DNA from: a virus
Virus record (IMG/VR): IMGVR_UViG_3300020121_000398
Location: 1 to 35,615 of that record
Reading direction: 5' to 3' (one strand)
DNA: 35,615 bases
Each line of letters opens with the position of its first letter. The stretch's first letter is position 1. Both the position numbers and the translations under genes were made by a program. The notes under the pieces are model-generated. The model did no database searches, had not been told where the DNA came from, and saw nothing but the letters and a program-made list of their open reading frames with translations. Positions 1 to 22,687 of this stretch are shown here, in pieces.

Positions 1-112
1 CTCGGGTATGCCTGGGGACGGGATCCTGCCTGAGGGGACCGGACGAACCAGGAAAGTGAAAGTGCGTTTGCGTGTTCCACGTAGACCTTCTTCACAAAGC
101 CCCGCCCTTTAG
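1..112 (+). pseudogene. possible 3' end of an IS200/IS605-type tnpB (partial)
   Basis: An open frame enters from the left edge and runs 36 codons to a TAG that sits inside the hairpin at 100-119. Its end reads SSQSPAL. The visible peptide is rich in Arg, Pro and Gly. In many IS200/IS605-family elements tnpB ends at or inside the right-end hairpin, so position and orientation fit. No RuvC or zinc-finger motif of TnpB is visible, because that part would lie outside the window. The assignment rests only on the hairpin, the stop inside it, and the tnpA at the other window edge. It could equally be non-coding IS sequence. Confidence 0.3.
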
Positions 113-286
113 GGTGGGGTGGATTACGAGCAGCACCGCTGCCGTCAGAAGCCCTACGCCGACAATGCCTACAAGAGAAAACCGGATCTGCGCGTGCATC
201 TCCTGCTGAATCGTTTGCTCGACGACCGCGAGCTGCCGTTCCTGCTCGGTCTCAGACGACTGTGCTGGGACCATCGACGCGCTCAT
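92..286 (-). CDS. small single-TM protein, 3' end altered by IS
   Basis: Product of 64 aa. A Glu/Gln-rich amphipathic N-terminal half (residues 8-32) is followed by one transmembrane segment at about 36-56 (core GIVGVGLLTAAVLLVI). The start overlaps the stop of the 684-aa gene as ATGA, so the two are probably co-translated. The last codons run into the IS-type hairpin at 100-119, so the native C-terminus was probably replaced when the element inserted. Family unknown. By layout it belongs to the block of small membrane proteins that fills the first 10 kb. A holin-like role is possible but unsupported. Confidence 0.6.
   Translation of the reverse strand: MSASMVPAQSSETEQERQLAVVEQTIQQEMHAQIRFSLVGIVGVGLLTAAVLLVIHPTLKGGAL
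100..119 (+). repeat. IS200/IS605-type terminal hairpin (left copy)
   Basis: The sequence forms an 8-bp stem (CCCCGCCC pairing with GGGTGGGG, one G-T wobble) closed by a TTTA loop. A near-identical hairpin with the same loop and orientation lies at 35261-35280. Subterminal hairpins of this kind are recognised by the IS200/IS605 HUH transposase TnpA. The exact element end is not visible; it is probably within about 10-20 bases to the right. Confidence 0.7.
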
Positions 287-2337
287 TTGATGACCTTCGC
301 GAGAGCCCAGCCGCCAAGCGCACCCGCGCCCGCAGCGAGCAGCCCGTAGTTGAGCATGTCCGCCTTCATGCGACCACGGCGTCGCGCTTCAGCGACGGCA
401 TTCCGGAATGCCGCGGCCCGCGCGGCGGCGGAATTCACGGCGTCGCGCTTGGCCGTCTCTCCGGCAACCCTCCACTGGGCCCCGGCGAGCTCCTCCATGT
501 GCTTCGACATTCCGTACTGCGTCGTCGCCAAGGAAACAGTGCGTGCGAGGTCGCGCTGCACGAGCGTGGACGCCGCTGCTGCTTGCTGCAGCGAACCGAA
601 CATGAACCGCGCCCATGGGACCGCAGTGCACTGACCGAGCTCCGTGCCTCCAGTCGTGAGCGGGACCTGGCCGATCACTTGCTCCAGGTAGTCCTTGTCC
701 GAGTGCACAACCCCATCGTACGGGACCGGATCCGTGCCGAGCTGCGTGCGAAGCATGTCGTAGCTTCTGACCCACTGATTCAGCTTGTCCGGGTTGATGC
801 AAGACGAACTCGTGCAGGTTCGCTTTGTGTACTCGGGACCACCGAGCCTCTGCTGGCTCATGGCGAAGAGAACGTGGTACGGCGTCGCGTACCGGCGCGC
901 CCCCCAGTACGCGAGAGAGCCAAGCGCGCTGCAGCCGGGCGCTGCCGGCGACCACGCAATGCTCGGCACGAGGGACTTGTTCATGTCGTCCATCGTGAGG
1001 TCGTAGTTCGTGCGCAGAGCGAGGTCGTCCACCGCCGTGGCGCGGTACGGGCATCCCGTCACGATCGAGCAGTCCCTGGAGATCGGATACTGGTAGTGAA
1101 GCGGATGCCCGTCGGGCCCGGTCAGTAGGTTTCCGTTGCTGCCGATCACGTAGTCGAGAGTGTTCGTTCCCGGGCTCGCCTCGGGAAACAAGTAAACGCC
1201 GTCCATCACGCCGCATGCGCCCGATGGGCTCAACCACTCCTGGTTAGCCCGGAACACCGCCTGGAGATTCCCCTCCACCGAATCCCAGTACTGCTGGTAC
1301 TGGAGCCACAGTGCCTTCGCGAGGTTCGTGCACCCGGCAGTTGCGGCTGCTTGAGCCTTGGCCGCTGCATCTTGCGCAGCTCGGAGCTTCTCGTTCACGC
1401 TCGGTCCGAACCCGAGCGCCTCTGCTACGGGAATGACAAGATCGTAGCCGACGAGCTGCCCGATGAGCGCACCGATCGGAGCAGGAACGCCAAACGACTG
1501 TCCGACGGCTGCGCCGATCGCAGAACACGCACCCACGACGAGCCCTTCAGCTTCTGCGGTGTTGATGGATCCATCCGAGAGAGACTCGAACGTCGCTTCG
1601 CACAGGCCGAATGGGATCCCGGGAGCTACCTGCGACATCCCGAACCGGCTCGCGGCAACGATGAACCCCTTGGCGCTCGCGTCGGACACGAGCGGGACGC
1701 CGTACTGCGATAGGTACGCGCTCCCCATCGCGACAGCCCACTGCTCTGCACCGTCCACGCTCGTTGGCCAGGTATTGAGGAGCCGCGACGCAGCCACGTA
1801 CTCCGGAGGGATCCCGATGGCCGCTCCGTTGGCGGCGACGAAGGACTGCATCATCCGCAGCGCGCCATCCGGGGTCGGATGGGTCAGCATCCCTGGGTTC
1901 GAAGCCAGGTACTTCCCTGCCCACTCGGCGGCCTCGGTTGCCGTGAGCGGCTGCTGGTATCCCTGCTTCGGCGGCTGCGTCCCCCGCTTGTCGAGCTCGA
2001 TCTTCGCCGAGTCGACCCCAGCTCTCACGTACTTCGAGCCGTAGAGCGTGGCCATCTGATCGGCCCACGGCGGGATCATCTTCGGGTCAGTCGGGACCCA
2101 CGGCACGTCGATCCCCGTGGCGCTCCGAAACGCGCCACGGGCCTTCTGTGCGGCCTCCTTCGTCAGATATCCCTGCGCAGCCGGCCTCAGCGCCTTCGCG
2201 TAGTTGAGCGCCGTGTCGCCGAGCCCGGGCTTCGCTTCTCCCGCATCCTGAGGGACCGGGTACCCGCCGCTAGGAACGTCGCCGAGCCCGAGGTTTCGAG
2301 GGACCCAAATGTGCGGACCGAGAGAGGAGTAGCTCAT
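283..2337 (-). CDS. 684-aa putative virion or envelope protein, C-terminal TM
   Basis: This is the largest gene in the left block and I recognise no family. The N-terminus carries two Gly-Leu-Gly motifs (GLGDVPSGG and GLGDTALNY). Residues 255-305 are strongly hydrophobic and could insert in a membrane. A region of about 340-560 holds many cysteines. The last third is Ala-rich and helical, and the protein ends in a transmembrane segment (AAGAGALGGWALAKVIK) with a short basic tail, like its smaller neighbours. The ATG at 2337 is preceded by a GAGGGG-type ribosome site. The stop overlaps the next gene. Context suggests a structural component of a membrane-anchored complex. Confidence 0.65.
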   Translation of the reverse strand: MSYSSLGPHIWVPRNLGLGDVPSGGYPVPQDAGEAKPGLGDTALNYAKALRPAAQGYLTKEAAQKARGAFRSATGIDVPWVPTDPKMIPPWADQMATLYGSKYVRAGVDSAKIELDKRGTQPPKQGYQQPLTATEAAEWAGKYLASNPGMLTHPTPDGALRMMQSFVAANGAAIGIPPEYVAASRLLNTWPTSVDGAEQWAVAMGSAYLSQYGVPLVSDASAKGFIVAASRFGMSQVAPGIPFGLCEATFESLSDGSINTAEAEGLVVGACSAIGAAVGQSFGVPAPIGALIGQLVGYDLVIPVAEALGFGPSVNEKLRAAQDAAAKAQAAATAGCTNLAKALWLQYQQYWDSVEGNLQAVFRANQEWLSPSGACGVMDGVYLFPEASPGTNTLDYVIGSNGNLLTGPDGHPLHYQYPISRDCSIVTGCPYRATAVDDLALRTNYDLTMDDMNKSLVPSIAWSPAAPGCSALGSLAYWGARRYATPYHVLFAMSQQRLGGPEYTKRTCTSSSCINPDKLNQWVRSYDMLRTQLGTDPVPYDGVVHSDKDYLEQVIGQVPLTTGGTELGQCTAVPWARFMFGSLQQAAAASTLVQRDLARTVSLATTQYGMSKHMEELAGAQWRVAGETAKRDAVNSAAARAAAFRNAVAEARRRGRMKADMLNYGLLAAGAGALGGWALAKVIK

Positions 2338-2346
2338 GGCCGCCCC

Positions 2347-2913
2347 TCACCCTGCGATCCCATCCTTCTCGACCGTCAGTGACCCTCCGGTGAGCAGCAT
2401 GTGCAGACCGGTGTGCGAGTACACGACCAGAAACTCTTCCTTGGTCTCTGGATGCCGCGCGGTTCCAAGCCACGCCCGAGCGACCGACACCTCGTACCGA
2501 TTCTCGTTGCCTTTCGGGACGACGAGACTCCCGTCCTTGGCCTTCGTGTAGAGCCGCACCTGCACGCCGAGTAGATGTCCAAGCCGTGTGATGTGCTTCG
2601 GCATCGGCTCTTCGAACTTCACCATCGGGCCGACGACCTTGATTCGCTTCGCTGGGCTACCCCACTCCCGGAGAAATCCGGGCTCCGCGAACACCGTGCG
2701 CGTGCCTTCTGCGACGTGCTTGTAGTCTTCGTTGTCCGCCAGGTTCTTCTGCCACTTGTTGGAACGGTACATCTCCGCGCCGCCAACGCCGATCTCCTGC
2801 ATCTTCGAAGGCCAGCTGAACGGCAGCTCGATCTCTTCGCGATGCTCGCGATCGTAGAAGGTCTTGAACGTCTTCTCTGCCTGACGCTCTGTATCGACAA
2901 CGCGCAGAGTCAC
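2347..2913 (-). CDS. hypothetical soluble protein, 188 aa
   Basis: GTG start at 2913, chosen because AGAGG sits just upstream and the next gene upstream stops at 2915. A longer ATG-started frame (to 3078) would overlap the whole end of that gene. The protein is charged, with no signal peptide or membrane segment, which is unusual in this block. It looks alpha/beta with a C-terminal beta-rich part (EEFLVVYSHTGLHMLL). No family recognised. Its place between tail-anchored proteins suggests a soluble partner of the same complex. Confidence 0.6.
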   Translation of the reverse strand: MTLRVVDTERQAEKTFKTFYDREHREEIELPFSWPSKMQEIGVGGAEMYRSNKWQKNLADNEDYKHVAEGTRTVFAEPGFLREWGSPAKRIKVVGPMVKFEEPMPKHITRLGHLLGVQVRLYTKAKDGSLVVPKGNENRYEVSVARAWLGTARHPETKEEFLVVYSHTGLHMLLTGGSLTVEKDGIAG

Positions 2914-2914
2914 A

Positions 2915-3256
2915 TTACCTCTTCTTCTTGAAGTACCAGACGAGTCCAACACCGGCAGCGCCGGCAGCAATCCAGAGTATCGGAGACGACGCAGGGATGT
3001 CGATCCCCGCGAGCGACCGATCTCGCCGAACGAGCCGACTGGAGTCAACGGGCGCGAGAATGCCGACCGCCTGATCACCCGAACCTACAGGCACGGCGTC
3101 GCCAGGGATCGGTCGCCCCGCCTCGATTGAGGGAACGCCGATCTTCGTAGCCTCCGGAAGCTCCGGCGTCGGCAGGTCGTCGTTGATGTTCTGGACCCGC
3201 TGATCCTGGAAGTAGTCGTAGCCGCCGCTCGCCGGGTTCCATCGGGAGTAAATCAC
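2915..3256 (-). CDS. tail-anchored small protein, 113 aa
   Basis: GTG start overlapping the upstream stop (GTGA). Residues 1-85 are polar and Pro-rich, without secondary-structure hallmarks. Residues about 90-108 form one transmembrane helix (PILWIAAGAAGVGLVWYF), followed by the basic tail KKKR. By the positive-inside rule the C-terminus should face the cytoplasm or virion interior and the N-terminal tail the outside. No family recognised. Confidence 0.6.
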   Translation of the reverse strand: MIYSRWNPASGGYDYFQDQRVQNINDDLPTPELPEATKIGVPSIEAGRPIPGDAVPVGSGDQAVGILAPVDSSRLVRRDRSLAGIDIPASSPILWIAAGAAGVGLVWYFKKKR

Positions 3257-4137
3257 GACGCGACTACCTTCCGCGCAAGGATCCCAGGAAGGACCAGGCT
3301 TGCAACCCAGATCGCCGCGCCGAGGGCGATGACCACGCCGATCGGTTTCAGCAGGTCGCCAAACATGTCGCCGAGCCCTGGGTTACCGTGCGTCGCCATG
3401 TTCTCGGCGGCACTGATGCACGAGCGCAGGTCCTCCTGAGAAGCCCCGGGCTTCGAGTTCAGGTCGTCGCACCACTTGAAAATCTTCTGCTGTGCGTTGC
3501 TGCCGATCGAAGCTTGGTAGAAGCAGAACGCCAACCCGAGCACGAGCACCGCTCCGATCGCAATGAAGGCAATGACGAGCGGGGCCACACCAAGGCCCGA
3601 GACCGGGTGTACCTTGAAGTCGTCGAGGTGTCCGTTCTTCTCCAAGTAGACGAAGGTCTCGAACGTCTTCATCGTCGCGTCAGCATGGGCCATCGCTTCT
3701 TCCGGAGAGAGCTTTCCGGCGCGCATCGCTGCTTCGACGACACCGTCGAAGTGCAGGTAGCCCGCGTTCGCCGCATTGGCCGCCAACGACGCGAACGCGT
3801 CGAACGACACCGTGCGCGGGAAGTCGACCGCAGCGCTCCAGTCGCCGTTCTTCACGGCCTCCCAGATGTCTGCCCCGGCCTGGCTCAGTAGTGCCTGCGT
3901 CTGGGTCATCGCCTTACGCGCGTCGACCTGTTCGAGATCACGGTACTTCTGCCGAAACTCCGGGCTGAGCTTTCCGACCGAGTCGAAGAACACGAAGCTC
4001 TCCTGGAGAAGCAGGTCCATGTATGCGGGGTCGTAACCGTTCTCGGTGATCCCGTGACCCTTCGCAATGAGCCCGTCCCAGGGGATCCCTGGAGGCCCGA
4101 AGTATTCGTCGTAAAGATCGGCAAGCTTTTCCAGCAT
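3253..4137 (-). CDS. membrane protein with two TM segments, 294 aa
   Basis: The ATG at 4137 overlaps the stop of the upstream gene (TGATG), which supports it over the longer frame to 4287. The N-terminal 190 residues are soluble and helical, with Ala-rich stretches. A first transmembrane segment lies at about 197-225 (LVIAFIAIGAVLVLGLAFCF) and a second near 262-288 (VVIALGAAIWVASLVLPGIL). Between them lies a short loop with two cysteines (FKWCDD, RSCISAAENM) and a GLGD motif just before the second helix. No family recognised. Probably part of the same membrane complex as its neighbours. Confidence 0.6.
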   Translation of the reverse strand: MLEKLADLYDEYFGPPGIPWDGLIAKGHGITENGYDPAYMDLLLQESFVFFDSVGKLSPEFRQKYRDLEQVDARKAMTQTQALLSQAGADIWEAVKNGDWSAAVDFPRTVSFDAFASLAANAANAGYLHFDGVVEAAMRAGKLSPEEAMAHADATMKTFETFVYLEKNGHLDDFKVHPVSGLGVAPLVIAFIAIGAVLVLGLAFCFYQASIGSNAQQKIFKWCDDLNSKPGASQEDLRSCISAAENMATHGNPGLGDMFGDLLKPIGVVIALGAAIWVASLVLPGILARKVVAS

Positions 4138-4490
4138 CAGTCTCTGCCTTTCGCCGACCAGTACGCGAACGCGCCGAACGTCACCGCGATCGTGACCCAG
4201 GCCCAGCGTGGGACCTGATCGATCGCCGCACGGAGGTCGCGCCCGAAGTGCCCCGGCTTCGGTCCGCCGGCAAGGTAACCAGACCACTCTTCGGTGAAGA
4301 CCTCTTCCGGCTTGTAGTAGCCGAGGTTCACGAGCGTGACGGGATCTGGGTGACCCGTTGCGTCCATCGGGTACCGTATGTCATTCGCCGATTGCTGGTA
4401 CGCCAGCAAGGCTCCGCGCGTCGTGTTGTCCCACTTTCCCGTGAGAGACACGCCGAGGACCCGCTGAACGCTCTCGACCGACGTTGCCAT
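4137..4490 (-). CDS. peptidoglycan-binding-like module plus C-terminal TM, 117 aa
   Basis: Residues 4-33 (SVQRVLGVSLTGKWDNTTRG and following) match the shape of peptidoglycan-binding domain 1: a short helix with QxxLGV, then a TG-x-W/F-D-x-xT turn and a final AYQ helix. One transmembrane segment follows at about 96-112 (WAWVTIAVTFGAFAYW) with the tail SAKGRD. The family binds cell-wall peptidoglycan. Here the module is tethered to a membrane rather than to a hydrolase. Neighbouring genes carry related modules. No catalytic domain is visible. Confidence 0.55.
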   Translation of the reverse strand: MATSVESVQRVLGVSLTGKWDNTTRGALLAYQQSANDIRYPMDATGHPDPVTLVNLGYYKPEEVFTEEWSGYLAGGPKPGHFGRDLRAAIDQVPRWAWVTIAVTFGAFAYWSAKGRD

Positions 4491-4491
4491 T

Positions 4492-5169
4492 TCAGTGCTT
4501 CTTCGAGGCCCGGAAGATGAGTGCTCCGCCGACTGCTACGGCGGCGATGGCTCCTCCCCAGAGCATCCAGTTCGTGCCGCCTCCGCCCGAACAGAACATG
4601 GACGACTTGCGAAGCCCGAGGGTCGGAGCCGAGGTTGGCGATGTCGCGGGTCCCACGTGCGTCACCGTCGTGGTGCCCGTGCGCGAGCCGATTTTCGTCG
4701 GCGCCACCTGGGAGCCGGCGTACGGAGCACACAGGTTTCCCATGACGACCGCAATGTCGGCCTGCGCGGGGTCCTTCATCGCGTCCGGAAATGACGTCAG
4801 GTACCAGTTGAACGCGCCGCACGTCTTCGGCCCGAGCTTTCCGTCGACCGTGATCGTGTTGTAGCCCTCGGCTGTAAGCGACACGTTGAGCGACGTCTGC
4901 AGGCGCTTGATGTCGTCCGCGGTCACCGAGCCGGCGTCGGTCACACCCAGGCTGTTGCCCGAGAGGCTTCCCGCCCAGGACGAGAGGTCCGGCGGCATGC
5001 CGACGACCGCCGGCCAGATCGGCCGCAGCCGGGCGTTCAGGTACGACACGTCCCGGTACTCGTGCTGTCCGTACGTCGCGCCAAGCCCGTGTACGGCGGG
5101 GCGCGCGATGCCCCACTGGGCGTTCAGTTCCGCCCAGTCTTCGTACGCGATGGGTCCGTATGTCGACAT
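4492..5169 (-). CDS. peptidoglycan-binding-like protein with C-terminal TM, 225 aa
   Basis: Residues about 83-130 form a peptidoglycan-binding-like module (DIKRLQTSLNVSL, then VDGKLGPKTCGAFNWYL). It carries a cysteine in the TCGA turn that recurs in the next gene. The N-terminal 80 residues are polar and contain GLGATYG. A Thr/Ser/Pro linker precedes a transmembrane helix at about 203-219 (MLWGGAIAAVAVGGALIF) and the basic tail RASKKH. GAGGAAG lies upstream of the ATG. Catalytic residues are absent, so it is a binding or anchoring protein rather than a lysin. Confidence 0.6.
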   Translation of the reverse strand: MSTYGPIAYEDWAELNAQWGIARPAVHGLGATYGQHEYRDVSYLNARLRPIWPAVVGMPPDLSSWAGSLSGNSLGVTDAGSVTADDIKRLQTSLNVSLTAEGYNTITVDGKLGPKTCGAFNWYLTSFPDAMKDPAQADIAVVMGNLCAPYAGSQVAPTKIGSRTGTTTVTHVGPATSPTSAPTLGLRKSSMFCSGGGGTNWMLWGGAIAAVAVGGALIFRASKKH

Positions 5170-5170
5170 G

Positions 5171-5989
5171 TCAGTGCTTCCTCTTCTTTGAGGCCACCAC
5201 TCCAGCGACCACCGCCGCAGCGACGAGGCCGCCCACGACCCAGCCGGTCATCGAGGACTTCTGTGGCGCCGGCAGGTGCGTTGTGTCGGCGGGAGGCGCC
5301 GGGGCGGGCGTCGGGGGCGGGGGCGCCGCCTTCCTCGCGGGCGGATTGAACGACTGGCAGTTTTTCCCGTACTCGCTCAGGTACTGCATGCCCCAGGAGT
5401 TCTCCGCGAGCTGCATCGCGCCGCACGTGTCGGCATCGAGCTTCGAGGTCTCCGCGATCTGGATGTACCCGTGTCCGTCGAGATCGTTGTTCAGGTCGTG
5501 CTGCACCTTGAGCGTCGTCGCATTGTCCGCGCCCCAGGGCAGCTGGTTCGAGAAGCTATCCGGCGGCTTGAAGACGCCACCGCTCACCTTCGTCGGGTAC
5601 GTCGACGTCTGGCAGATGTTGGTGAGAGTGCCGCTCGAATCCGGCTGCACGATGAGCTCGATGAGGTGCAGGTCCGGGTTCGCGTCGAAGTTCACGTCCT
5701 TGAGCGTCCCGAGCCACGCGATGGCGCCGCACGTATTCGCGCCGAGGATGCCGTCCGCGGTGAGCGTCACGAACCCGCGAGCCTTCAGCTCCGTGTTGAG
5801 CGCGACCTGCATCGCTTTGATCTGCGGGTCCGGAGTCGTGCCCCTCCAGACGATGTCGCCGATCCCGGCGGCGGCCTGCTCGTAGTCGCCCATGCCTCCG
5901 AAGCCCATGTTGGAGCCGTCGAAGACTCCACCGCCGTAGCCGCCTGGGCCGAAGATACCGCTGCGCGTACGCACCTGCATGCCACTCAT
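5171..5989 (-). CDS. double peptidoglycan-binding-like protein with C-terminal TM, 272 aa
   Basis: Two modules of the same type follow each other: about residues 54-95 (IKAMQVALNTELKARGF, then DGILGANTCGAIAWL) and about 155-200 (LKVQHDLNNDLDGHGY, then LDADTCGAMQLAEN). Both share the TCGA turn with the gene upstream, so they look like internal and neighbouring duplications. A Pro/Ala linker (about 215-243) leads to a transmembrane helix (GWVVGGLVAAAVVAGVVA) and the tail SKKRKH. The ATG at 5989 overlaps the upstream stop (ATGA). The Gly-rich N-terminus has no known function. Confidence 0.6.
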   Translation of the reverse strand: MSGMQVRTRSGIFGPGGYGGGVFDGSNMGFGGMGDYEQAAAGIGDIVWRGTTPDPQIKAMQVALNTELKARGFVTLTADGILGANTCGAIAWLGTLKDVNFDANPDLHLIELIVQPDSSGTLTNICQTSTYPTKVSGGVFKPPDSFSNQLPWGADNATTLKVQHDLNNDLDGHGYIQIAETSKLDADTCGAMQLAENSWGMQYLSEYGKNCQSFNPPARKAAPPPPTPAPAPPADTTHLPAPQKSSMTGWVVGGLVAAAVVAGVVASKKRKH

Positions 5990-6519
5990 GATGCTTTTCT
6001 CCGTCTCTTGCCGAACAGGAAGAACCCGCCAATCGCGGACACCACTCCGACGATGATCGGAACAGTGAAATCGGTTTTCTGAGTCGCGTCGTCCGATGCC
6101 GACGGGCCAGAGCTGTCGACTACTGGCGCCACGGCTGACGACGCCGGCCACGCCTGGCTGCTGGGCGCAGCGACGACCGGAGCCATTTGCAGAACGGGCG
6201 CCGACGACGAGTCGACGGTAGGGGCGCTTGCCGACGGCGCTGCAACGGTCTGCACGATCGGCTCAGACGGAATCGGTTCGCCGCGCTCAGCAAGGTCCTG
6301 CGCGGTAGGAGCTGGAACCAGGGCTGGAGCCGGTGCAGCGGACGCCGACGAATCCACGTCGTCGCTCAGGTATTGCCCGACCCCCGCGAACCCTCGCTTG
6401 AGCAGCGACATATCGATCCCCATCGTCCGAGGCGGAATGATGATCGACGCCAACGGGTTGGCGTAGATGGCTGCGCCCTCTTCCTTGAACTGCAGGGGCT
6501 GTCCGTCTCTTCGGTACAT
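5986..6519 (-). CDS. Ala/Pro/Ser-rich tail-anchored protein, 177 aa
   Basis: A short N-terminal domain (1-50) is followed by about 95 residues of low-complexity Ala/Pro/Ser/Val sequence. A transmembrane helix lies at about 151-170 (TVPIIVGVVSAIGGFFLF) and the strongly basic tail GKRRRKAS closes the protein. This stalk architecture suits a projecting or spacer protein whose N-terminus is held away from the membrane. AAAGG lies just before the ATG. No family recognised. Confidence 0.6.
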   Translation of the reverse strand: MYRRDGQPLQFKEEGAAIYANPLASIIIPPRTMGIDMSLLKRGFAGVGQYLSDDVDSSASAAPAPALVPAPTAQDLAERGEPIPSEPIVQTVAAPSASAPTVDSSSAPVLQMAPVVAAPSSQAWPASSAVAPVVDSSGPSASDDATQKTDFTVPIIVGVVSAIGGFFLFGKRRRKAS

Positions 6520-6528
6520 TTCGGCCTT

Positions 6529-6843
6529 TCAGAACTGAGGACCGTACTTCACGTATGCCCAGGTAACTAGGAGACCCACCGCGACTACTGCGAGCGCCTT
6601 CACGCCCTGATTCGTTGGAGGTGGCTCGTCTTCTCCGAGCCCCATCATCGGCGGCTCCAACGCGAAGTCGTTCGGCCGAGGCGCCCACGGCAGCCCGAAC
6701 TCGGGCCGCGTGTAGATCGGCCCGTGGTACCGGGTCGGGTACGAGTGGAGCATCACGGTGTACGGGTTCGGCACGCCCGGAGGGATCGGACCTTCATACG
6801 TGTTCAGGGACTTACCGAGGCCCCCGGCGCATGGGCATCCCAT
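6529..6843 (-). CDS. tail-anchored protein with GLGED motif, 104 aa
   Basis: The ATG at 6843 overlaps the stop upstream (TGATG). The N-terminus MGCPCAGGLGKSL has two early cysteines, too far from any hydrophobic segment to be a lipobox. The middle is Pro/Tyr-rich. GLGEDEPPP precedes a transmembrane helix at about 83-101 (KALAVVAVGLLVTWAYV). The GLGED motif recurs in two other proteins of the block (near 7090 and 8900). Confidence 0.55.
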   Translation of the reverse strand: MGCPCAGGLGKSLNTYEGPIPPGVPNPYTVMLHSYPTRYHGPIYTRPEFGLPWAPRPNDFALEPPMMGLGEDEPPPTNQGVKALAVVAVGLLVTWAYVKYGPQF

Positions 6844-7250
6844 CACTTGCTCCTGTTGGCGACGAAGCCCATGGCTCCGAGCCCGACCAATCCACCGAAG
6901 AGCCCGACCGGGACGCCGATCCAGCCCCATGTCCTGGCCTTGTCCCTCGACGGCGCCATGGCCTTCCCTGCCTGGTAGGACAGAGCGCCAGCAATACCGA
7001 GGATCGCCACCGCCCACGCGGCATCGCCCGCCGTGATTTTGCCGCCCGTGCTCACGACTGCTCCAGGGACCGTCGGCGCCGCGTCCTCGCCGAGGCCCTT
7101 GAGCGCAGCGACCACTGGGCTCAGCGCGAAGATCCGGCTCTTTCCGAGCCCGGTCCCCGCGGCTGCTTCGGTGATCGTGCCCGGCAGCACTTGAACACCC
7201 GGAGCTGTGAAAATGTCGTAATCCGGCAAAATGGAGCGTGCGTTCGACAT
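6843..7250 (-). CDS. membrane protein with GLGED motif and two TM segments, 135 aa
   Basis: The ATG at 7250 has AAAAGGTGACC upstream. Residues 1-50 are soluble. LKGLGEDAAPTVPG (about 49-62) precedes two hydrophobic segments, about 75-92 (AAWAVAILGIAGALSY) and about 106-128 (GWIGVPVGLFGGLVGLGAMG), ending in ANRSK. Both the motif and the layout match the small proteins on either side. No family recognised. Confidence 0.55.
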   Translation of the reverse strand: MSNARSILPDYDIFTAPGVQVLPGTITEAAAGTGLGKSRIFALSPVVAALKGLGEDAAPTVPGAVVSTGGKITAGDAAWAVAILGIAGALSYQAGKAMAPSRDKARTWGWIGVPVGLFGGLVGLGAMGFVANRSK

Positions 7251-7252
7251 GG

Positions 7253-7957
7253 TCACCTTTTGATGATCGTGGCTGCGAAGATCCCAACCGCGACGCCCAC
7301 GATCGCGAACGCCGCGATCATGCCGCCGCTGGCCTTCCCCGCAGTGGGAGTCGCGTCCGCGCCCATGCCCGAGATCGGCGACGACCACTCCTGCGGGATC
7401 CAGTCACCACCACCAGGCGCGTCGGCAGGCTGCGCCGTCGCCTGGGGGCTCACCCCTGGAGGCAGCTCCCACAGAAGCTGGCGCTCGCGGATCGTGTCGG
7501 CTTGCGCTTGATCGATCGCGACGGCGCCACCGGGCACGAACATGACGGCGTTGCCGGTTGTGCCGTCGATGACTTCGGACGGCTCGTAGAACTGCTCGCG
7601 CACGAGGTAGCCGGGGATGTTTTCGTGATCTGAAAACACACCGTAGTCGGGGTGGATGTTCCCGTGCGTCAGGTGCGGGTCGAAGACACCGTTGCCTTGG
7701 ACGTCGTCGGATTCCGCCAAGCTGTCCAATTCATTGGGGTAATCTTTGATTCCCACGTCTGCGCTCATCATGTTTCCTCCAAGGCCTGCGATGTTGCGTC
7801 CGCGCGCGCCGATGTACTGGTCGTAGTACGGGTTCAACGCGCTCGGCCGCATGTCTGGCGGACCGTCATCATCAATCGTCGGAAGGTCACCGCCGAAGAT
7901 CGGCGTGGAGTCGTACACCGGGTACGGCGGACGAAGACTCGTGAATCGGTTGCTCAT
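7253..7957 (-). CDS. tail-anchored putative structural protein, 234 aa
   Basis: The ATG at 7957 overlaps the stop of the transglutaminase-like gene (ATGA); the longer frame upstream is a shadow of that gene. The N-terminal 190 residues are soluble, rich in Pro, Asp and Tyr, with a likely beta-strand segment EVIDGTTGNAVMFVPGG. ISGMGADATPTAG resembles the GLGED spacer of neighbours. A transmembrane helix at about 212-231 (GMIAAFAIVGVAVGIFAATI) ends in IKR. No family recognised. Confidence 0.6.
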   Translation of the reverse strand: MSNRFTSLRPPYPVYDSTPIFGGDLPTIDDDGPPDMRPSALNPYYDQYIGARGRNIAGLGGNMMSADVGIKDYPNELDSLAESDDVQGNGVFDPHLTHGNIHPDYGVFSDHENIPGYLVREQFYEPSEVIDGTTGNAVMFVPGGAVAIDQAQADTIRERQLLWELPPGVSPQATAQPADAPGGGDWIPQEWSSPISGMGADATPTAGKASGGMIAAFAIVGVAVGIFAATIIKR

Positions 7958-8514
7958 GTGATGCTCCTGACGGCGCTCGGGGGCTCGTCCAGGCTGACCG
8001 TGTAAAAAGTCGTCACCCGATCGAGCATGCCCCGTTCGTCGGTGCCAGCTACGGCGTCGGTCACGATCCACTTGCTGGTACGCGGCTCTTGCACGATCGC
8101 GAACACGTGACCGTAGTGACCAGGCTCGCCAAAACCAACGACGACGTACTTCACAACGCGCCCGATCGTCAGGCACATCGTCGCGGTCAGCTCCGCGATC
8201 TCGTCGCAGTCGGCGAGCACGACGCCGTTCTTCTTGATCTCTTCGAGCAGCGCCTGCGCGTCCCGTACGAGCTCGACGTGCAGGGGATCGGGCGTGTAGC
8301 GAACGTGCTCCGTCACCCAATATCGGATCGCAAGGATCTCTCCGAGGTAGTCCTTCGGTTGTACGTTACGGATCACGTCCTCCGTCATCATGCGAACGAA
8401 GAGACTCTTCTCGCCGCGAGGTCCCTGCGCGTCCTTGACCATCTGCCGGAGAGTGTCCGGATGCCCATGGAACGCACTGAGAGAATATTGAGGAACCTGG
8501 GTATCGCCGAGCAT
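7954..8514 (-). CDS. transglutaminase-like cysteine protease fold protein, 186 aa
   Basis: The catalytic triad of the transglutaminase-like superfamily is visible: Cys103 in VLADCDEIAEL, His136 in GHYGHVFAIV and Asp153 in WIVTDAVAG, in the expected order. The upstream helix (RYWVTEHVRYTPDP) fits the family pattern before the catalytic Cys. These enzymes act as proteases or amidases, or form isopeptide cross-links. In phages they occur near structural genes. It is the only clear enzyme in the membrane-protein block, so processing or cross-linking of those proteins is a reasonable inference. The ribosome site is weak (GGGA). No membrane segment. Confidence 0.75.
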   Translation of the reverse strand: MLGDTQVPQYSLSAFHGHPDTLRQMVKDAQGPRGEKSLFVRMMTEDVIRNVQPKDYLGEILAIRYWVTEHVRYTPDPLHVELVRDAQALLEEIKKNGVVLADCDEIAELTATMCLTIGRVVKYVVVGFGEPGHYGHVFAIVQEPRTSKWIVTDAVAGTDERGMLDRVTTFYTVSLDEPPSAVRSIT

Positions 8515-8559
8515 GGGTATCCCGATGCAGGGGGTCGGGAGCGCCCAGCAGTCGAAACT

Positions 8560-8727
8560 CTACCTGCTGGCCCCGAAATCCTCAACCGCTCTTTCGGCAT
8601 CGCCGATTCTGGCGCGCTTTTCCTGGCGCCGCTGCGCCGTAAAGCCTCCGCTGCAGCCGTTCGCCTTGTGCGGCTTACAGAACAAACACCCGGCGCGCCG
8701 GTTCTTCGGGCGCTTGTGATGGGCCAT
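8560..8727 (-). CDS. small CxxC basic protein, 55 aa
   Basis: A clear AAGGAG lies six bases before the ATG, and the frame is open to a TAG at 8560. The protein is Arg/Lys-rich, with a single CLFCKPHKANG motif near residues 14-24 and a helical charged C-terminus. Short proteins with C-x-x-C-K-P-H-K are common near mobile elements and in phages of high-GC hosts; their role is unknown, probably nucleic-acid binding. Bases 8515-8559 upstream hold no gene. Confidence 0.65.
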   Translation of the reverse strand: MAHHKRPKNRRAGCLFCKPHKANGCSGGFTAQRRQEKRARIGDAERAVEDFGASR

Positions 8728-8763
8728 GAACACTCCTTGCCGGCGTCACCGGCGTGGTCGTGT

Positions 8764-9195
8764 TCACGCGGCCTTCATCTTGGCGTCGAGCGCAAAGACT
8801 GCGACGGCGAGCGCCACGAGGATCCCACCAGTGACCCACGTCGACGCGTGCCCGAGGTTTGCGGTGTCCGCCTCGGCGGGAGCCGGAGCGTCCTCGCCGA
8901 GACCCTTGAACCCGATGATTCGTCCGTTGGCGTCGAAGATCGCGCAGCGCCCGTTCTGGTCACGGACCTCGCACTCTTCTTCGATGTAGACGGGGTAACC
9001 GTACGGCCAGGAGGCGTCGCCGCCCCACCAACCGGGGCCACCTCCCTGGATGATCGTCGTGCCGCCGCCGCGCCCGCCGTGATGAAAGCCGCCACCGCCT
9101 CCGTGGTGCCCACCACCTCCGCCGCCACCATGGTGGCCTCCACCTCCTCCTCCGTGACCACCGCCGCCTTTACCGAGTCCGCTCGTTTGGTACAT
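8764..9195 (-). CDS. Gly/His-rich tail-anchored protein with GLGED motif, 143 aa
   Basis: The ATG at 9195 starts MYQTSGLGKGGGG. About 35 residues of almost pure Gly and His follow (runs of GGGGGHH and FHHGG), then a conserved-looking domain with two cysteines (EEECEVRDQNGRCAIFD). GFKGLGEDAPAP comes next, and a transmembrane helix near 117-135 (TWVTGGILVALAVAVFAL). His-rich low-complexity stretches can bind metals or act as flexible spacers. DNA encoding the stretch is a simple GGN/CAC repeat that could vary in length between isolates. Confidence 0.6.
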   Translation of the reverse strand: MYQTSGLGKGGGGHGGGGGGHHGGGGGGGHHGGGGGFHHGGRGGGTTIIQGGGPGWWGGDASWPYGYPVYIEEECEVRDQNGRCAIFDANGRIIGFKGLGEDAPAPAEADTANLGHASTWVTGGILVALAVAVFALDAKMKAA

Positions 9196-9203
9196 CGCGA
9201 CAC

Positions 9204-9431
9204 CTACACCAGCGCCCAACGTCCGTTGACCCAATCGAAGCGCTGGGCAAACGCCGCGACTTGCTGATCGATCGTGGCCTGAGTCATCCCGAGGACCTCG
9301 TCCTCGGCTTCGTCGTCGCTCATCCAGACGGGGCCCCGCTTCGAGAGGACACGCCCACCAGAGACGAGACGGAAGTACCGCCACTTGTGGTCGTCCCAGA
9401 AGGAGAAGCCGAGCGACGTTAGGCCGTACAT
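9204..9431 (-). CDS. hypothetical protein, 75 aa
   Basis: Small soluble protein with an aromatic N-terminal half (FSFWDDHKWRYFRLV) and an acidic helix in the middle (SDDEAEDEVLGM). A GGGCGAG stretch precedes the ATG. It ends nine bases before the Gly/His-rich gene. No family recognised. The 81 bases upstream (9432-9512) show no gene and no repeat. Confidence 0.5.
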   Translation of the reverse strand: MYGLTSLGFSFWDDHKWRYFRLVSGGRVLSKRGPVWMSDDEAEDEVLGMTQATIDQQVAAFAQRFDWVNGRWALV

Positions 9432-9512
9432 TGCTCGCCCAGTCTACAGGCGCCGAGCCGCGACCGGCAAGCTTTCAGGTCCGGGCCGCAGAATTCCTGG
9501 CAGATCAGCGAG

Positions 9513-9725
9513 TCACGCTGACGGAATTCCCTCGCGAATCGATGGCTCGCTGCTCCGACACACGTCGATGACTTGCTCGTGGCTAAACCCAAGCAGGATA
9601 AATTCTGCTACGGCCATCCCCATCAGCGTCGACGCGATCGTGACACGGCTGGATCCGTTCGCCTCTGCAATTGTGATCGCATCCTGGAACAGCGCTCGCA
9701 GGCGCCGCAACTCGTTCACGTTCAT
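9513..9725 (-). CDS. hypothetical helical protein, 70 aa
   Basis: The ATG at 9725 overlaps the stop of the gene upstream (ATGA). All-helical, with a hydrophobic middle (TIASTLMGMAVAEFILLGF) that is probably a packed helix rather than a membrane segment. No family recognised. Confidence 0.5.
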   Translation of the reverse strand: MNVNELRRLRALFQDAITIAEANGSSRVTIASTLMGMAVAEFILLGFSHEQVIDVCRSSEPSIREGIPSA

Positions 9726-9970
9726 TTTTCGTCGCTCCCCGTGGGCCACACGTCGAGCGGCCAGAGCAGGATCGTGAGAACGAACCCGAGGACGACAGCG
9801 ACCACGGCAGTGCCCGTAGGCGTCGGGTAACGGACAGGATCCATGTTTTCGATGCCTCGCCCCTCTCGCACTCCGAGAATCGCGTCCTCATAAATGTATG
9901 CCCGCAGCGAGATGGCGCGTGCGAGGCCAAGAGTGAGGTACAGGATGCCGATCCCGAAAAGCACAGTCAC
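9722..9970 (-). CDS. small protein with two TM segments, 82 aa
   Basis: GTG start overlapping the upstream stop (GTGA). Two hydrophobic segments lie at about 2-23 (VLFGIGILYLTLGLARAI) and 55-73 (VAVVLGFVLTILLWPL), joined by a polar loop. The C-terminus is charged. The size and two-helix topology resemble class II holins, but nothing else supports lysis, and no endolysin is adjacent. Confidence 0.55.
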   Translation of the reverse strand: MTVLFGIGILYLTLGLARAISLRAYIYEDAILGVREGRGIENMDPVRYPTPTGTAVVAVVLGFVLTILLWPLDVWPTGSDEK

Positions 9971-10363: not shown

Positions 10364-10606
10364 TCAGTTCGCTTCCGATGACTCAGACACCACGGTCCCG
10401 CCGACGAATGATGCGTCCACGATTGCGTGGAGATCTTCACGGATCTTCGGCAGCTCTTCTCGTTCCCAGTTGTCTCGCGCAATTTTCGCGCAGGCGAATC
10501 CTACGAGGAAGCCCAGTCGATTCTCTTCCGCCACCCCCATCTTGTCCATCGCCGCGCAGAGGTCTTCCCACAGGGCCTCTACCTGCTCCTTCGTGACTAC
10601 CTTCAC
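10364..10606 (-). CDS. hypothetical helical protein, 80 aa
   Basis: GTG start overlapping the stop of the 866-aa gene (GTGA). The protein is helical (VTKEQVEALWEDLCAAM), with a short hydrophobic patch (GFLVGFACAKIA). By position it may partner the coiled-coil protein encoded just upstream. No family recognised. Confidence 0.5.
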   Translation of the reverse strand: MKVVTKEQVEALWEDLCAAMDKMGVAEENRLGFLVGFACAKIARDNWEREELPKIREDLHAIVDASFVGGTVVSESSEAN

Positions 10607-13203
10607 GACGGTGCGCTCGCGGGTTGCTGCTGTTGCTGAGCCATCTCTGCCTGCAACCTCTGTATCTGTTTCCCGATCTCCACCCAGAGCTTCTCGATCC
10701 ACTTCTTCCCGTCCCGGCTCGTGATGATCGACTCACCACCGTTCGGCATGCGTTTGACGATGTCGATGACGTCGGACGCCTTGTGGGAGCTGATGAGTAC
10801 GTGCGACGGTTCCGGAAACGACGCGACCATGCGCATGGCGACCTGGTCGGGCTCCATGCCCGCCGTCATGGCCTGCTCGATCTGAGATCGGAAGCCGACG
10901 ACCCACTCGTCGGGGAACACGGGCGAATACGACGTGGGCGCCGCGGGCTGCTGCTCCGGAGCGGGACCCTGAGGCTGCTGTTGTGGTCCTTCCGGTGGTG
11001 CTGCCTGCTGCTGCGGTTGCGGCGGTGCCGCTTGCGCCGGCTGAGGCTGCTGCTGAGGCTCGACCTGTACGCCCGGGGAGGGCGGCACGTGCGGGCGCTG
11101 CCCAGCGACGGGCACCGAGTCCTGCGTTGCCCAGGCCACTGCAGCCCGACGGCTCGGCGCCGGACGTGGCTGCGGTTGAGCTGGCCGCTGCGGCATGTTC
11201 TGCGGGAGCATGCGTGGGCTCTGTGGCTCTCGGGCGAGGACCTTCGGAACCCACTGGTCAGCGTTCTCGAAGAACTTACCGATGCCGGTTCCAGCGGTTG
11301 CGAGAAACCGGTCCCATCCGGTCTTCGGCTCGTCATCGTCCTTGTGGTAGCCCATGGCCTCCGCCTGTTCCTTGGCCTTGTTCAGGACGGTGACCGGGTC
11401 CTTCGCATCGGCGGCATCTGCTTTCGCCTCTTCGAGTTCTCCCTCCAGCCTTTGGATCTTTTCCTTCGTGTTGGCGAGCTGCATCTCGTAGGCGCTCTTG
11501 CTCGTGTCCGTGCGGGTCACGTGCTGGCCCTCTTGCATGCGCAGCTCCCGGGCGTGCTGGTCTTTGATGTCCTTCAGACGGTCTTCGAAGCGAGTGACGG
11601 TGTCGGCGACACGGCGGTCGGAAGCTTCGCGATCGTCCCGCCGCTGTTGGTCCGCCTGAGCACGGAGCTCGGTCTCTCGCTCTCGAAAGCGGCGCTCCTG
11701 TTCGTCGCCACGGTCTCGGGCGCGCTTTTCCACCTCGTCGAGCCGCTCTCGCATGCGCCGAAGCTCTTCATCGTGTCGCTCCTTCAGCGAAGTGAGCGCT
11801 TCCTTGTGGTTGTCCTTCAGCGTCGCGATCTCGTCGCGGTGACGATCCTTGAGGTCAGCAAGCTGCTCTTCCAGAACCTTGCCCGGTGAGACTGCCTTCG
11901 TCAGCTCGATGGCGCCCTGAAAGGGATTGTTCTGCGCGGCTGCCTGAGCGTTCTGCTGCGTCATGGTGTCGAACTTCTCGGCAAGCCTGCGCATCTCTGC
12001 CTTCTGCTCGTTCAGCTGTTCTCGCAGCGCGTTCTCACGAGTTTCGGCGGCGCGCCTTTCCGAGTCGAACTGCAAGCGCTGCTGCTCCAGCGCGGCCTTC
12101 TGCGTGTCCGCGACGACGTGCAGCGCTTCCTTGGTGCCGCCTCCGTCTCCTGCGCGCCTCAGAAGTTCGATCGTGAGGTCGTCCGCTCGTTTGCTGGCGG
12201 AGTTCACGAAATCGAGCGTCGACTTGTGCATCTGCGCGTCGGCCGCGTTCGTCGGTGGCTGCAGGGTGGGGGCCATGGGGTAGCCGGGCGGGAAAGGTTG
12301 CATCTTGCGGTCTCCTGCTGCTTGATTCACGTGGGCTGGGAAAATCAGTGGTGGCCGTGGGCCCGGCACCGTCAGCATGAACGGCTCCGTCTTGGGCTTG
12401 ATGAGCGGCTGTCCGGATACCGGATCCTGACGGCCGCGCGGATCAGGTCCGTAGACCTGCAGCAAATAGACGCTACCGCCGAAGCGGTCGGCAAACTCTT
12501 CCTCGGTGATGGGCACACGGATCTCGCCCATGTAACCGGACGTCGCCACCCCGAGCCACGCCTTCGGCTCTTTGCGTTCGACTCGAATGAAGTGCTGACC
12601 GTCGCCGATCGTGAACCGCGCGTAGACGTCGCGAAGGTTGCGCGGCTGCTTCCACCCGACGAGGTCCTCGTTGCTGTCCGGAAAGACGGCGCCGATCGTG
12701 GGCTTCGACCGGTTGCGCGGGTCATCCTCTTCCGCGGGGACCGCGTCCATCGGAGAGTGCGGCTCGTCGTCCGGCAGCGCCGGCTCGTCGGGATCGCCGT
12801 CAGTAAGGGAAGGGTCGTGGACCGGAGCCGTGCGCGGCACGGGAGGAGGGTCCTCGACCGGACCGTAGCGCTCTGTGAGGACGTCTTCGATCGACGTCCG
12901 TGTCTTCTTCGCGCGCGGCGCCGTCTGCTCCGGGTTCGACGCGCGCGCTTCCTCCCGTTCGTCGTCCGACATCTCGACGAACGCTGCCGGATCGAGCCCG
13001 CGTCGCTTCGCTTCGAGCCGCAGCTGATGGGTCCACCGCGCTTTGTACGCTCCGCGCTCGCGCGGGGACATCGCCGAGTACGCGGCGTACGGAACGTTGT
13101 AGCGACGCGACTCGCTGAGCAGGACGCGGTCGATCTGTCGTTGGTCGACAGATGCCGCGTCCTGAGTCTGCTCGGCTTCGCTCACGTCATCCCCGTCGTT
13201 CAC
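10603..13203 (-). CDS. 866-aa coiled-coil protein
   Basis: The longest gene in the window. GTG start overlaps the upstream stop (GTGA). Domains in order: an acidic/basic N-terminal helical part (1-100), a Pro/Asp linker (110-170), a compact beta-rich domain at about 175-300, and about 290 residues (roughly 325-615) of heptad-rich, highly charged coiled coil. Next comes a Pro/Gln low-complexity stretch (about 680-775), and a folded C-terminal domain follows (SPVFPDEWVVGFRSQI onward). There is no Walker motif, so it is not a packaging ATPase, and no membrane segment. The dimensions suit a scaffold, fibre or measuring protein, which is inference. Confidence 0.65.
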   Translation of the reverse strand: MNDGDDVSEAEQTQDAASVDQRQIDRVLLSESRRYNVPYAAYSAMSPRERGAYKARWTHQLRLEAKRRGLDPAAFVEMSDDEREEARASNPEQTAPRAKKTRTSIEDVLTERYGPVEDPPPVPRTAPVHDPSLTDGDPDEPALPDDEPHSPMDAVPAEEDDPRNRSKPTIGAVFPDSNEDLVGWKQPRNLRDVYARFTIGDGQHFIRVERKEPKAWLGVATSGYMGEIRVPITEEEFADRFGGSVYLLQVYGPDPRGRQDPVSGQPLIKPKTEPFMLTVPGPRPPLIFPAHVNQAAGDRKMQPFPPGYPMAPTLQPPTNAADAQMHKSTLDFVNSASKRADDLTIELLRRAGDGGGTKEALHVVADTQKAALEQQRLQFDSERRAAETRENALREQLNEQKAEMRRLAEKFDTMTQQNAQAAAQNNPFQGAIELTKAVSPGKVLEEQLADLKDRHRDEIATLKDNHKEALTSLKERHDEELRRMRERLDEVEKRARDRGDEQERRFRERETELRAQADQQRRDDREASDRRVADTVTRFEDRLKDIKDQHARELRMQEGQHVTRTDTSKSAYEMQLANTKEKIQRLEGELEEAKADAADAKDPVTVLNKAKEQAEAMGYHKDDDEPKTGWDRFLATAGTGIGKFFENADQWVPKVLAREPQSPRMLPQNMPQRPAQPQPRPAPSRRAAVAWATQDSVPVAGQRPHVPPSPGVQVEPQQQPQPAQAAPPQPQQQAAPPEGPQQQPQGPAPEQQPAAPTSYSPVFPDEWVVGFRSQIEQAMTAGMEPDQVAMRMVASFPEPSHVLISSHKASDVIDIVKRMPNGGESIITSRDGKKWIEKLWVEIGKQIQRLQAEMAQQQQQPASAPS

Positions 13204-13745
13204 TCGTCGTCATCATCATCCGGGTCGGGCTCCCCCTCTGGAGCATCCGCCGGATTGTCGTCGTCCACCGTGATCTCCCGAGTGAACTCCATCATGCCGT
13301 TCGTCGCGCGGCGGAGCGTCTCGAAGATCTCACGCTGACGTGCGCCTTCGATGCCGTCCGGGATGATGCCGTCCAAGCCGTCGAGCAGCTTCAGGAACTG
13401 CTCGAAGAGCTGGATGTACTTTTCAGCGTCCTCCTGAAGGAGTGTCGAGGCCGTAGTCTCTCCAGCCTCCACGCGCTCCAGCTCTTCCTCGACGTACATG
13501 AATGCGCCGCCGGTCGCCGCGGTGATGTCGACGAGAAGCGACATGACGGTCGCACCGATTTCTCGGTAGACCGTCGCGAGCTCCGTGTTCCCGGCGTCTT
13601 GCGCTGCCTTCGCCAAGGCCGCAAAGCGTGTCTTGCCTTCTGCCGCGTCCGTCCAGAGTGTGTGGAACTCGGCTTCCGTGTCGACGTCCTCCTCTCCAGG
13701 GGTCTCGGGTGTGCTCGGCTGGATCTGCGTTTGCGGCTCAGGCAT
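13200..13745 (-). CDS. acidic helical protein, 181 aa
   Basis: Highly acidic protein ending in DPDDDDDE, with a helical core (residues 25-150) and a Pro/Gln/Thr-rich N-terminus. AAAGGA lies upstream of the ATG, which overlaps the upstream gene by eight bases. The design resembles phage scaffolding or chaperone-like proteins, but I see no diagnostic motif. It is encoded directly before the 866-aa coiled-coil protein, so the two may act together. Confidence 0.55.
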   Translation of the reverse strand: MPEPQTQIQPSTPETPGEEDVDTEAEFHTLWTDAAEGKTRFAALAKAAQDAGNTELATVYREIGATVMSLLVDITAATGGAFMYVEEELERVEAGETTASTLLQEDAEKYIQLFEQFLKLLDGLDGIIPDGIEGARQREIFETLRRATNGMMEFTREITVDDDNPADAPEGEPDPDDDDDE

Positions 13746-14481
13746 CGGTGGGTCCTTTCGTATCGAAGATCCCCCCGAAGATCGGGAGGTGCTCGCGTGT
13801 CTTTCCCTGCTCGACCTTCAGCTTGTCGAAGTCTTCGAGCTGCTGACTTGTTGTGGCGTCGTAGGGATCGCGCATGTCGCAGGCCCACATGCCGGTGTCG
13901 CTCACGGTCATGAACGTCCCCTCCGTCGAACGGCGCGCGGAGCACAGGCGGTAGTACTTCGTGCGCGATGCGTTCAGGTGGAAGCTGCCCTTCTGCCGAA
14001 CGTAGTGCCTGCACGGTGGCCGAATCGGTTCGACTTCGACCCAGTCGGTGTCGGACCAAGACATTGAGAGAGCGAACTGCTGTAGCTCGCGAGACTTCTC
14101 CGGATTTTGGGCCCTGCAGATCTCTTCGAAGACTTCTCTTCGGGTACGCCAGCGACCGTTCGGGGCGCGCGTGACCTGTGCAGGGGTGAACCGCACCAAG
14201 ACTTCTGCCCACGAGTTGCGGATCACGAACGCCGAGTAGTCGCCCATGCACACGAGCGACTCGGTAGAGAGCGCGGGGATGTCGCTCTCCGTCGTCTGAT
14301 CCATCGTGACGGGCAACCCATCGGGACCGATCACGCGCTCGGCGATTGCCGGCTCGTAAGCGTCAGCTACCTCATCGAACGGATGAAACTCCGTTTCGGC
14401 GTCGGCGCTGCTTCCCTCGTGATCAAGAACGGTCTCGTCGAGGTCCGCGGAGTCGCGGACCTCGTCCTGGTCGTCGGACAT
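13738..14481 (-). CDS. hypothetical protein with cysteine/histidine sites, about 247 aa
   Basis: Two starts are possible: GTG at 14529, which touches the upstream stop, or ATG at 14481. I prefer the ATG because the acidic opening MSDDQDEVRDSADLDE resembles the neighbouring proteins, whereas the extra 16 residues look like translated spacer. A Glu/Asp-rich N-terminal 70 residues precede a mixed alpha/beta domain with scattered Cys and His (PPCRHYVRQKG, YRLCSARRS, WACDMRD). These could hold a metal. No family recognised. Confidence 0.55.
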   Translation of the reverse strand: MSDDQDEVRDSADLDETVLDHEGSSADAETEFHPFDEVADAYEPAIAERVIGPDGLPVTMDQTTESDIPALSTESLVCMGDYSAFVIRNSWAEVLVRFTPAQVTRAPNGRWRTRREVFEEICRAQNPEKSRELQQFALSMSWSDTDWVEVEPIRPPCRHYVRQKGSFHLNASRTKYYRLCSARRSTEGTFMTVSDTGMWACDMRDPYDATTSQQLEDFDKLKVEQGKTREHLPIFGGIFDTKGPTDA

Positions 14482-14528
14482 GTGGCACGCATGGTAAGCA
14501 CTGCCCGCGCATGAATCAACGGTCGTCA

Positions 14529-21988: not shown

Positions 21989-22059
21989 CGCCGTTGCTCT
22001 CCGTGGTCAGAATCGACCGGCGATGGTGCCGGGGGATCTGCCGTGCATCCGTGCTTCAT
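21985..22059 (-). CDS. 24-aa leader-like open frame (MKHGCTADPPAP...)
   Basis: This ATG sits in the ATGA junction after the 136-aa gene, and the frame's own stop overlaps the membrane-protein ATG (ATGA). It therefore bridges a gap that would otherwise break the coupling chain. Its first 17 residues match, with few changes, the N-terminus of the 104-aa protein at 23861. It is either a translated coupling peptide or the remnant of a deleted paralogue. Confidence 0.45.
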   Translation of the reverse strand: MKHGCTADPPAPSPVDSDHGEQRR

Positions 22060-22466: not shown

Positions 22467-22687
22467 CTGCGAGCTCCAGTGTGCGGAGCCAGAGGTTCCC
22501 CGGTGACCGGATCAACTTCCTTGTTACGCCAAACAGCGAACTCGTTTTCATGCGGACCGTGATGCCCAAGATCTAGCTCGCATCGTAAGCGAAGCTCTTC
22601 ACTACCTGGCATTGGGCTGCCGCATGTACACCCCACCGAATCCGGTGGCGCGGAGCCAGAAATATCCGACTGAGTCTCGTGCTTCAT
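22463..22687 (-). CDS. small zinc-ribbon protein, 74 aa
   Basis: Header MKHETQSDISG, then a compact zinc site: VGCTCGSPMPG, LRCELDLGHHGPHEN. The C-x-C and C-x6-H-H-x2-H pattern is widespread in small phage proteins of high-GC hosts. The ATG overlaps the stop upstream (ATGA). Role unknown. Confidence 0.6.
   Translation of the reverse strand: MKHETQSDISGSAPPDSVGCTCGSPMPGSEELRLRCELDLGHHGPHENEFAVWRNKEVDPVTGEPLAPHTGARR

Follow-up and report, generated by a model that had tools for sequence, protein, structure and literature searches.

The 35,615-bp virus record IMGVR_UViG_3300020121_000398, analysed here over its whole length (the window), encodes almost every convincing gene on the minus strand, and its first 10 kb hold a block of 18 genes rich in proteins with a transmembrane (TM) helix near the C-terminus. 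Comparison of the window ends found no matching repeats, and the right end interrupts an IS200-like Y1 transposase gene (35270-35614; Pfam PF01797, 108 bits; truncated by the contig end), so the window is a fragment. The block genes are listed below; 'TM rule' marks a C-terminal helix called by the fixed rule that follows the list, and 'core' marks presence in all six genomes compared.

92-286, minus strand: 64-residue protein with a C-terminal TM helix (residues 38-55; TM rule); weak relatives in loci L014 and L016
283-2337, minus strand: 684-residue protein with a weak C-terminal hydrophobic segment and two N-terminal GLG motifs; core (6/6), with orthologs in the same place, 40-46% identical
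2347-2913, minus strand: soluble conserved protein of about 188 residues (start estimated from orthologs); core (6/6), 58-73% identical to nearer relatives and 28% in the distant locus L020
2915-3256, minus strand: 113-residue tail-anchored protein, tail FKKKR (TM rule)
3253-4137, minus strand: protein of about 294 residues with two TM segments, one of them C-terminal (TM rule); 53% identical to L002
4137-4490, minus strand: 117-residue protein with a peptidoglycan-binding-like N-terminus (PG_binding_1, 21.8 bits, slightly below the cut-off of 23) and a C-terminal hydrophobic segment; orthologs 43-65% identical
4492-5169, minus strand: 225-residue tail-anchored protein, tail SKKH (TM rule), with a peptidoglycan-binding-like region (PG_binding_3, 17.1 bits, below cut-off); homologous to the next protein
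5171-5989, minus strand: tail-anchored protein of about 272 residues, tail SKKRKH, with two G[MI]G motifs (TM rule)
5986-6519, minus strand: 177-residue tail-anchored protein, tail GKRRRKAS (TM rule)
6529-6846, minus strand: tail-anchored protein of about 105 residues (MGCPCAGGLGKSLN...; start from an ortholog; TM rule); 56% identical to L002
6843-7250, minus strand: tail-anchored protein of about 135 residues with GLG motifs (TM rule)
7253-7957, minus strand: tail-anchored protein of about 234 residues, tail IKR (TM rule); core (6/6), 64% identical to L002
7954-8514, minus strand: putative 186-residue transglutaminase-fold Cys enzyme (Transglut_core, 25.2 bits, cut-off 23)
8764-9195, minus strand: Gly/His-rich tail-anchored protein of about 143 residues with GLG motifs (TM rule)
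9722-9970, minus strand: 82-residue protein with a hydrophobic segment at either end and a negative tail (TM rule); no ortholog among the loci compared, and block membership uncertain

A C-terminal TM helix was called where an 18-residue segment had a mean Kyte-Doolittle value of at least 1.6, contained at most one polar or charged residue, and ended no more than 14 residues from the C-terminus. By this rule, 11 of the 18 block genes encode such a helix, compared with none of the 49 other window genes (Fisher p = 2.5e-8). The tails are short, mostly basic, and net positive in 10 of the 11, and weaker C-terminal hydrophobic segments are present in two further proteins (283-2337 and 4137-4490). 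An earlier note, made from the letters of this DNA, had described about a dozen proteins with a C-terminal helix and a short basic tail; the 11 and the two weaker cases bear this out, and all of the tails that it quoted (FKKKR, SKKH, SKKRKH, GKRRRKAS, and IKR) are found in the block. The design that it described for most of the proteins needs some qualification: 3253-4137 has a second TM segment, the tail of 9722-9970 is negative, and the block also includes several genes for soluble proteins (2347-2913, 9204-9431, 9513-9749, and the transglutaminase-like 7954-8514). Signal peptides appear to be lacking, judged solely by the absence of an early hydrophobic segment, except that 9722-9970 has an N-terminal one. 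Searches of the block proteins against Pfam and PHROGs gave nothing beyond the weak peptidoglycan-binding and transglutaminase signals.

A search of viral contigs with the 3253-4131 protein identified a 140-kb virus contig in which 12 of the block proteins recur with their order unchanged, at 33-65% identity to those of the window; scans with other single window proteins were mostly without match. Beyond the window's end, the block of this contig goes on with further tail-anchored proteins, then one rich in Arg and Lys (the Arg/Lys-rich protein) and three soluble ones, P267, P331, and P281; the left end of the window cuts off the block before these conserved capsid-like proteins. With profiles of P267 and P331, the family grows to at least 23 contigs beside the window (21 viral contigs and two contigs of metagenome-assembled genomes [MAGs]), and all 23 loci keep the markers in order on a single strand, although the more distant loci yielded fewer of them. 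One MAG is assigned to Pseudomonadota and the other to Planctomycetota, which is no proof of hosts because binning may be wrong. Six genomes are complete by exact direct end overlaps of 120-141 bp, such as assemblers leave on circular molecules, and circular and circularly permuted genomes fit these alike; they are G002 (136,226 bp), G003 (138,414 bp), G007 (125,036 bp), G008 (111,584 bp), G016 (135,429 bp), and a MAG contig (122,730 bp).

The TM enrichment is seen again in the matching blocks of five relatives, and therefore in six of six genomes, and is not a product of chance. Genes for C-terminal TM proteins account for 21/36 in the block versus 9/195 elsewhere in G001, 20/37 versus 8/176 in G002, 12/28 versus 14/131 in G008, 13/33 versus 6/242 in G012, and 15/30 versus 7/182 in G016; these counts could move by a few because the window's gene list was made by hand and those of the relatives by a simple codon-usage caller. 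The viruses of this group encode about twenty membrane-anchored proteins beside a candidate jelly-roll capsid gene. We note that a DnaJ-domain protein lies within the structural block (G001 3419-4036, in locus L003) and is present in most relatives, and that an 837-aa (amino acid) protein with apiosidase-like and collagen-binding domains adjoins the block in L002 (2633-5146), with no counterpart in the other block loci compared.

The candidates for capsid proteins, P267, P331, and P281, are soluble and strongly conserved, and their genes lie, in relatives, immediately beyond the point that corresponds to the left end of the window; P267 is 55-93% identical in the first eight loci, with a mean column identity of 69% in 16. 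The AlphaFold model of P331 (pLDDT 56 overall, about 75-83 in the strands) has a long N-terminal helix followed by a beta-strand C-terminal domain. Its top structural matches are the major capsid proteins (MCPs) of SPV1 (Z 7.7), an iridovirus (7.5), and PR772 (7.0), then SH1 (6.8) and D13 (6.7), with picornaviruses and the jelly-roll enzyme PHM among the further ones; matches in BFVD reach 9e-6, mostly to unnamed entries. Double jelly-roll proteins are matched over one domain, the model containing about one jelly-roll domain, and no capsid candidate as long as the double jelly-roll MCPs of Tectiliviricetes and kin was recognised. The model thus likens P331 to a viral single jelly-roll capsid protein, a fold that we regard as likely rather than established because all Z scores are below 8 and no Foldseek match to the PDB passes 0.001. 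With regard to the capsid folds that the earlier note proposed to look for (double jelly-roll or others), this fold evidence, moderate in strength, leans towards a single rather than a double jelly-roll. An AlphaFold model of P267 (from eight rows) was too poor to use; its Foldseek matches were insignificant, and its weak structural matches were often jelly-roll capsids. When the PDB was searched by sequence, using P267 and P331 themselves and profiles built from all three proteins, coiled-coil or chance matches alone were returned.

Among the Pfam and PHROGs matches listed for the 140-kb relative (for Pfam, the best 25 of 45 families) are replication genes, collagen-repeat fibres, an amidase, a transglycosylase, glycosyltransferases, and an integrase. 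That the genomes close as circles, that the lineage is known from its genes, and that tail-anchored proteins with peptidoglycan-binding-like domains also suit a cell-envelope machine for adhesion, predation, or secretion could indicate a large, non-viral, plasmid-like element. We consider this quite unlikely, given the resemblance of P331 to viral jelly-roll capsid proteins, the fibre, amidase, and transglycosylase matches, and the origin of 21 of the loci in a virus collection.

Hallmark genes were sought in the window and in 12-14 related virus records, five of them complete, at curated cut-offs that gave matches in control genomes. No large terminase (PF03354, phrog_2, PF03237) was matched in the virus records. 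The portal model PF04860 matched 0/13 records, other portal models not being searched by name, and the HK97-fold capsid model PF05065 also matched 0/13, although a highly divergent HK97 fold could escape it. The earlier note would have been contradicted by a standard terminase, portal, and tail module elsewhere in the genome, and its view withstands this check with the models used. The FtsK/HerA packaging ATPase for which the same note advised a search was likewise not found (PF01580, PF01935; none of the virus records gave a match above cut-off). Among P-loop proteins, DnaB alone occurs in every genome with called genes; others (DnaC, AAA, and a small kinase) are not common to all. A tailed phage (Caudoviricetes) lineage could nonetheless be imagined whose genes for head, portal, terminase, and tail have diverged beyond what the models recognise and whose membrane proteins form an accessory module for the envelope or for host takeover; many relatives of DnaB (below 60% identity) are found in tailed phages, which also commonly carry collagen-like fibres and RecT, RuvC-like, and Dam-like genes. 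This is unlikely, however, since the models that found nothing here matched the control genomes, a terminase requires a P-loop, which DnaB alone provides throughout, and the P331 model is jelly-roll-like.

The 7954-8514 protein scores above the Pfam cut-off for a transglutaminase-like core domain, and the three residues expected to form its triad (Cys, His, and Asp) are invariant in six of six genomes, so that membership of this domain family is indicated at the sequence level; we regard it as a candidate maturation protease or cross-linker. The block proteins also share a short motif. Outside TM segments, GLG or GMG occurs 12 times in the window's block versus 3.2 expected, 25 versus 5.8 in G012, and 32 versus 4.5 in G016, with a weaker excess in G008 (10 versus 5.0). 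The excess is limited to the block, non-block proteins showing none, and GLG is the most enriched tripeptide among those tested; the motif is possibly a cleavage or docking site. The Arg/Lys-rich protein, of about 800 aa, has a hydrophobic middle stretch and a repeated GMGEYF-like C-terminus; measured in four loci, its net charge lies between +138 and +189.

A virion module with an internal membrane is the simplest reading of these observations, one in which the tail-anchored proteins would lie in the membrane, the jelly-roll-like proteins in the shell, and the basic protein on the DNA, with an enzyme for maturation. Lipid in the particle is suggested indirectly, by the enrichment of tail-anchored proteins in the module. 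We propose, with a probability of roughly 70%, that the block is the membrane part of such a module, in an undescribed, large, probably tailless, membrane-containing dsDNA virus lineage, most likely bacterial. The tail-anchored proteins would insert their C-terminal helices into the host membrane, so that the N-terminal bodies occupy the space separating it from the shell and the short basic tails point towards the genome. P267, P331 (the predicted single jelly-roll), and P281 would build the shell above the membrane, and the Arg/Lys-rich protein would condense the genome and tether it to the membrane. Particle maturation may be the task of the transglutaminase-like enzyme, through cleavage or cross-linking that possibly takes place at the common GLG/GMG motif. 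As no packaging motor was recognised, shell and membrane may form around condensed DNA. The peptidoglycan-binding-like, amidase, and transglycosylase proteins would aid wall crossing, and the collagen-like fibres would bind the host.

The earlier note's view of a membrane-containing virion rather than an ordinary tailed phage is thereby retained, without support for the FtsK/HerA ATPase and the double jelly-roll that it proposed to look for. The outward-facing bodies that it derived from the positive-inside rule are doubtful; since signal peptides appear to be absent, large N-terminal bodies would more naturally be cytoplasmic, between membrane and shell, and both placements are inferences. 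The same consideration bears on an enveloped or pleomorphic budding virus, with tail-anchored spikes, P267, P331, and P281 as an inner matrix, and no icosahedral shell. The many single-span proteins and the unrecognised packaging motor would suit it, yet large N-terminal bodies are not readily exported as surface spikes without signal peptides, and P331 resembles shell-forming capsid proteins, making this very unlikely.

Several points weigh against the proposed internal-membrane virion. The AlphaFold models are weak (pLDDT 41 for P267 and 56 for P331); the Z scores of P331 are all under 8, values that according to the tool's own warning often arise between unrelated proteins; and Foldseek against the PDB gave neither P267 nor P331 a match passing 0.001. 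P267 and P281 have no confident fold, and profile comparison revealed no mutual sequence kinship among the three. A divergent packaging ATPase could have escaped the models, and tailed phages too carry collagen-like fibres. The lineage is known from genes alone, from which we infer the particle, its topology, its host, and its packaging mechanism.

Outside the block, three further window genes stand out, the first two listed being core in six of six genomes.

10603-13203, minus strand: 866-residue conserved protein adjoining the block; no Pfam match above cut-off
13738-14484, minus strand: 248-residue conserved protein
28130-29545, minus strand: DnaB replicative helicase, the P-loop protein present in every compared genome

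A run of small minus-strand genes (22056-24910) has repeated start regions (families D1-D6, 63-100% identical; e.g., MKRETQ, MKHETQSD, and MKQGTQ), as if a leader or ribosome-binding region had been duplicated. G001 encodes a protein of 1,279 aa whose N-terminal half contains an integrase domain (121285-125124; L009 7285-11124) and a 630-aa TnpB-like protein (93882-95774; L007 17882-19774) assigned from its N-terminal sequence; Pfam matches in the set include Cas12f1-like TNB and HTH_OrfB_IS605.

The earlier note's suggestion of an undescribed system agrees with the absence of any tblastn match for five proteins (window 283-2337, 3253-4131, and 13738-14484; P267; and P331) in 50,697 phage records, and no description of this virus group was found in the literature, with partial coverage. 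The lineage is recurrent, with its contigs unclassified here, and is easily overlooked because the hallmark-gene models used do not detect it. A fuller proposal, which is decidedly tentative, makes these viruses a separate lineage of high rank, namely tailless bacterial dsDNA viruses that contain a membrane and have large genomes (about 112-138 kb). Their shell would consist of three beta-rich proteins unrelated to one another, a protamine-like protein tethered to the membrane would condense the DNA, packaging would proceed without an ATPase of the virus, and a transglutaminase-fold enzyme would act in maturation on about a dozen virion proteins, at their shared GLG motif. A lineage of this design with genomes of 112-138 kb and no recognised packaging motor would, if true, upset the view that bacterial viruses of this kind are small and would be a bacterial counterpart of the large jelly-roll viruses of eukaryotes.

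We claim membership in no known family, and the likenesses are in design. PRD1, PM2, the Odin group, and FLiP share the membrane-containing tailless plan, and the PR772 MCP matches P331 as noted above; the lack of a packaging ATPase also has precedent, because the Odin group and FLiP are likewise without one, and the prokaryotic double jelly-roll viruses surveyed have genomes of about 7-18 kb (PMC5894146). These differ in having two jelly-roll domains where the P331 model shows one, and no sequence relation was found. Sphaerolipoviridae, Simuloviridae, and P23-77-like viruses have two single jelly-roll MCPs and an internal membrane, and resemble the present lineage in its adjoining small beta-rich capsid candidates, its many membrane proteins, and the SH1 match; their genomes are of about 16-30 kb, and a packaging ATPase, expected there, was not found here. 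In adenovirus-type maturation, a viral cysteine protease cuts at short Gly-containing sites. A conserved Cys enzyme within a structural module, many of whose proteins carry a short Gly motif, is reminiscent of this, whereas the fold here is transglutaminase-like rather than that of the adenovirus protease, and the cleavage role is putative. The closest analogue in design is Portogloboviridae, whose member Sulfolobus polyhedral virus 1 (SPV1), the source of the top structural match to P331, has a single jelly-roll shell over an internal membrane, subcapsomer proteins, and a condensed nucleoprotein core of circular dsDNA (PMC8459092). Sequence comparison with the SPV1 chains of the PDB showed no similarity, and SPV1 differs in its genome of about 20 kb and its archaeal hosts, whereas the genomes of the relatives described here measure 112-138 kb and carry DnaB, fibre, and lysis-type genes.

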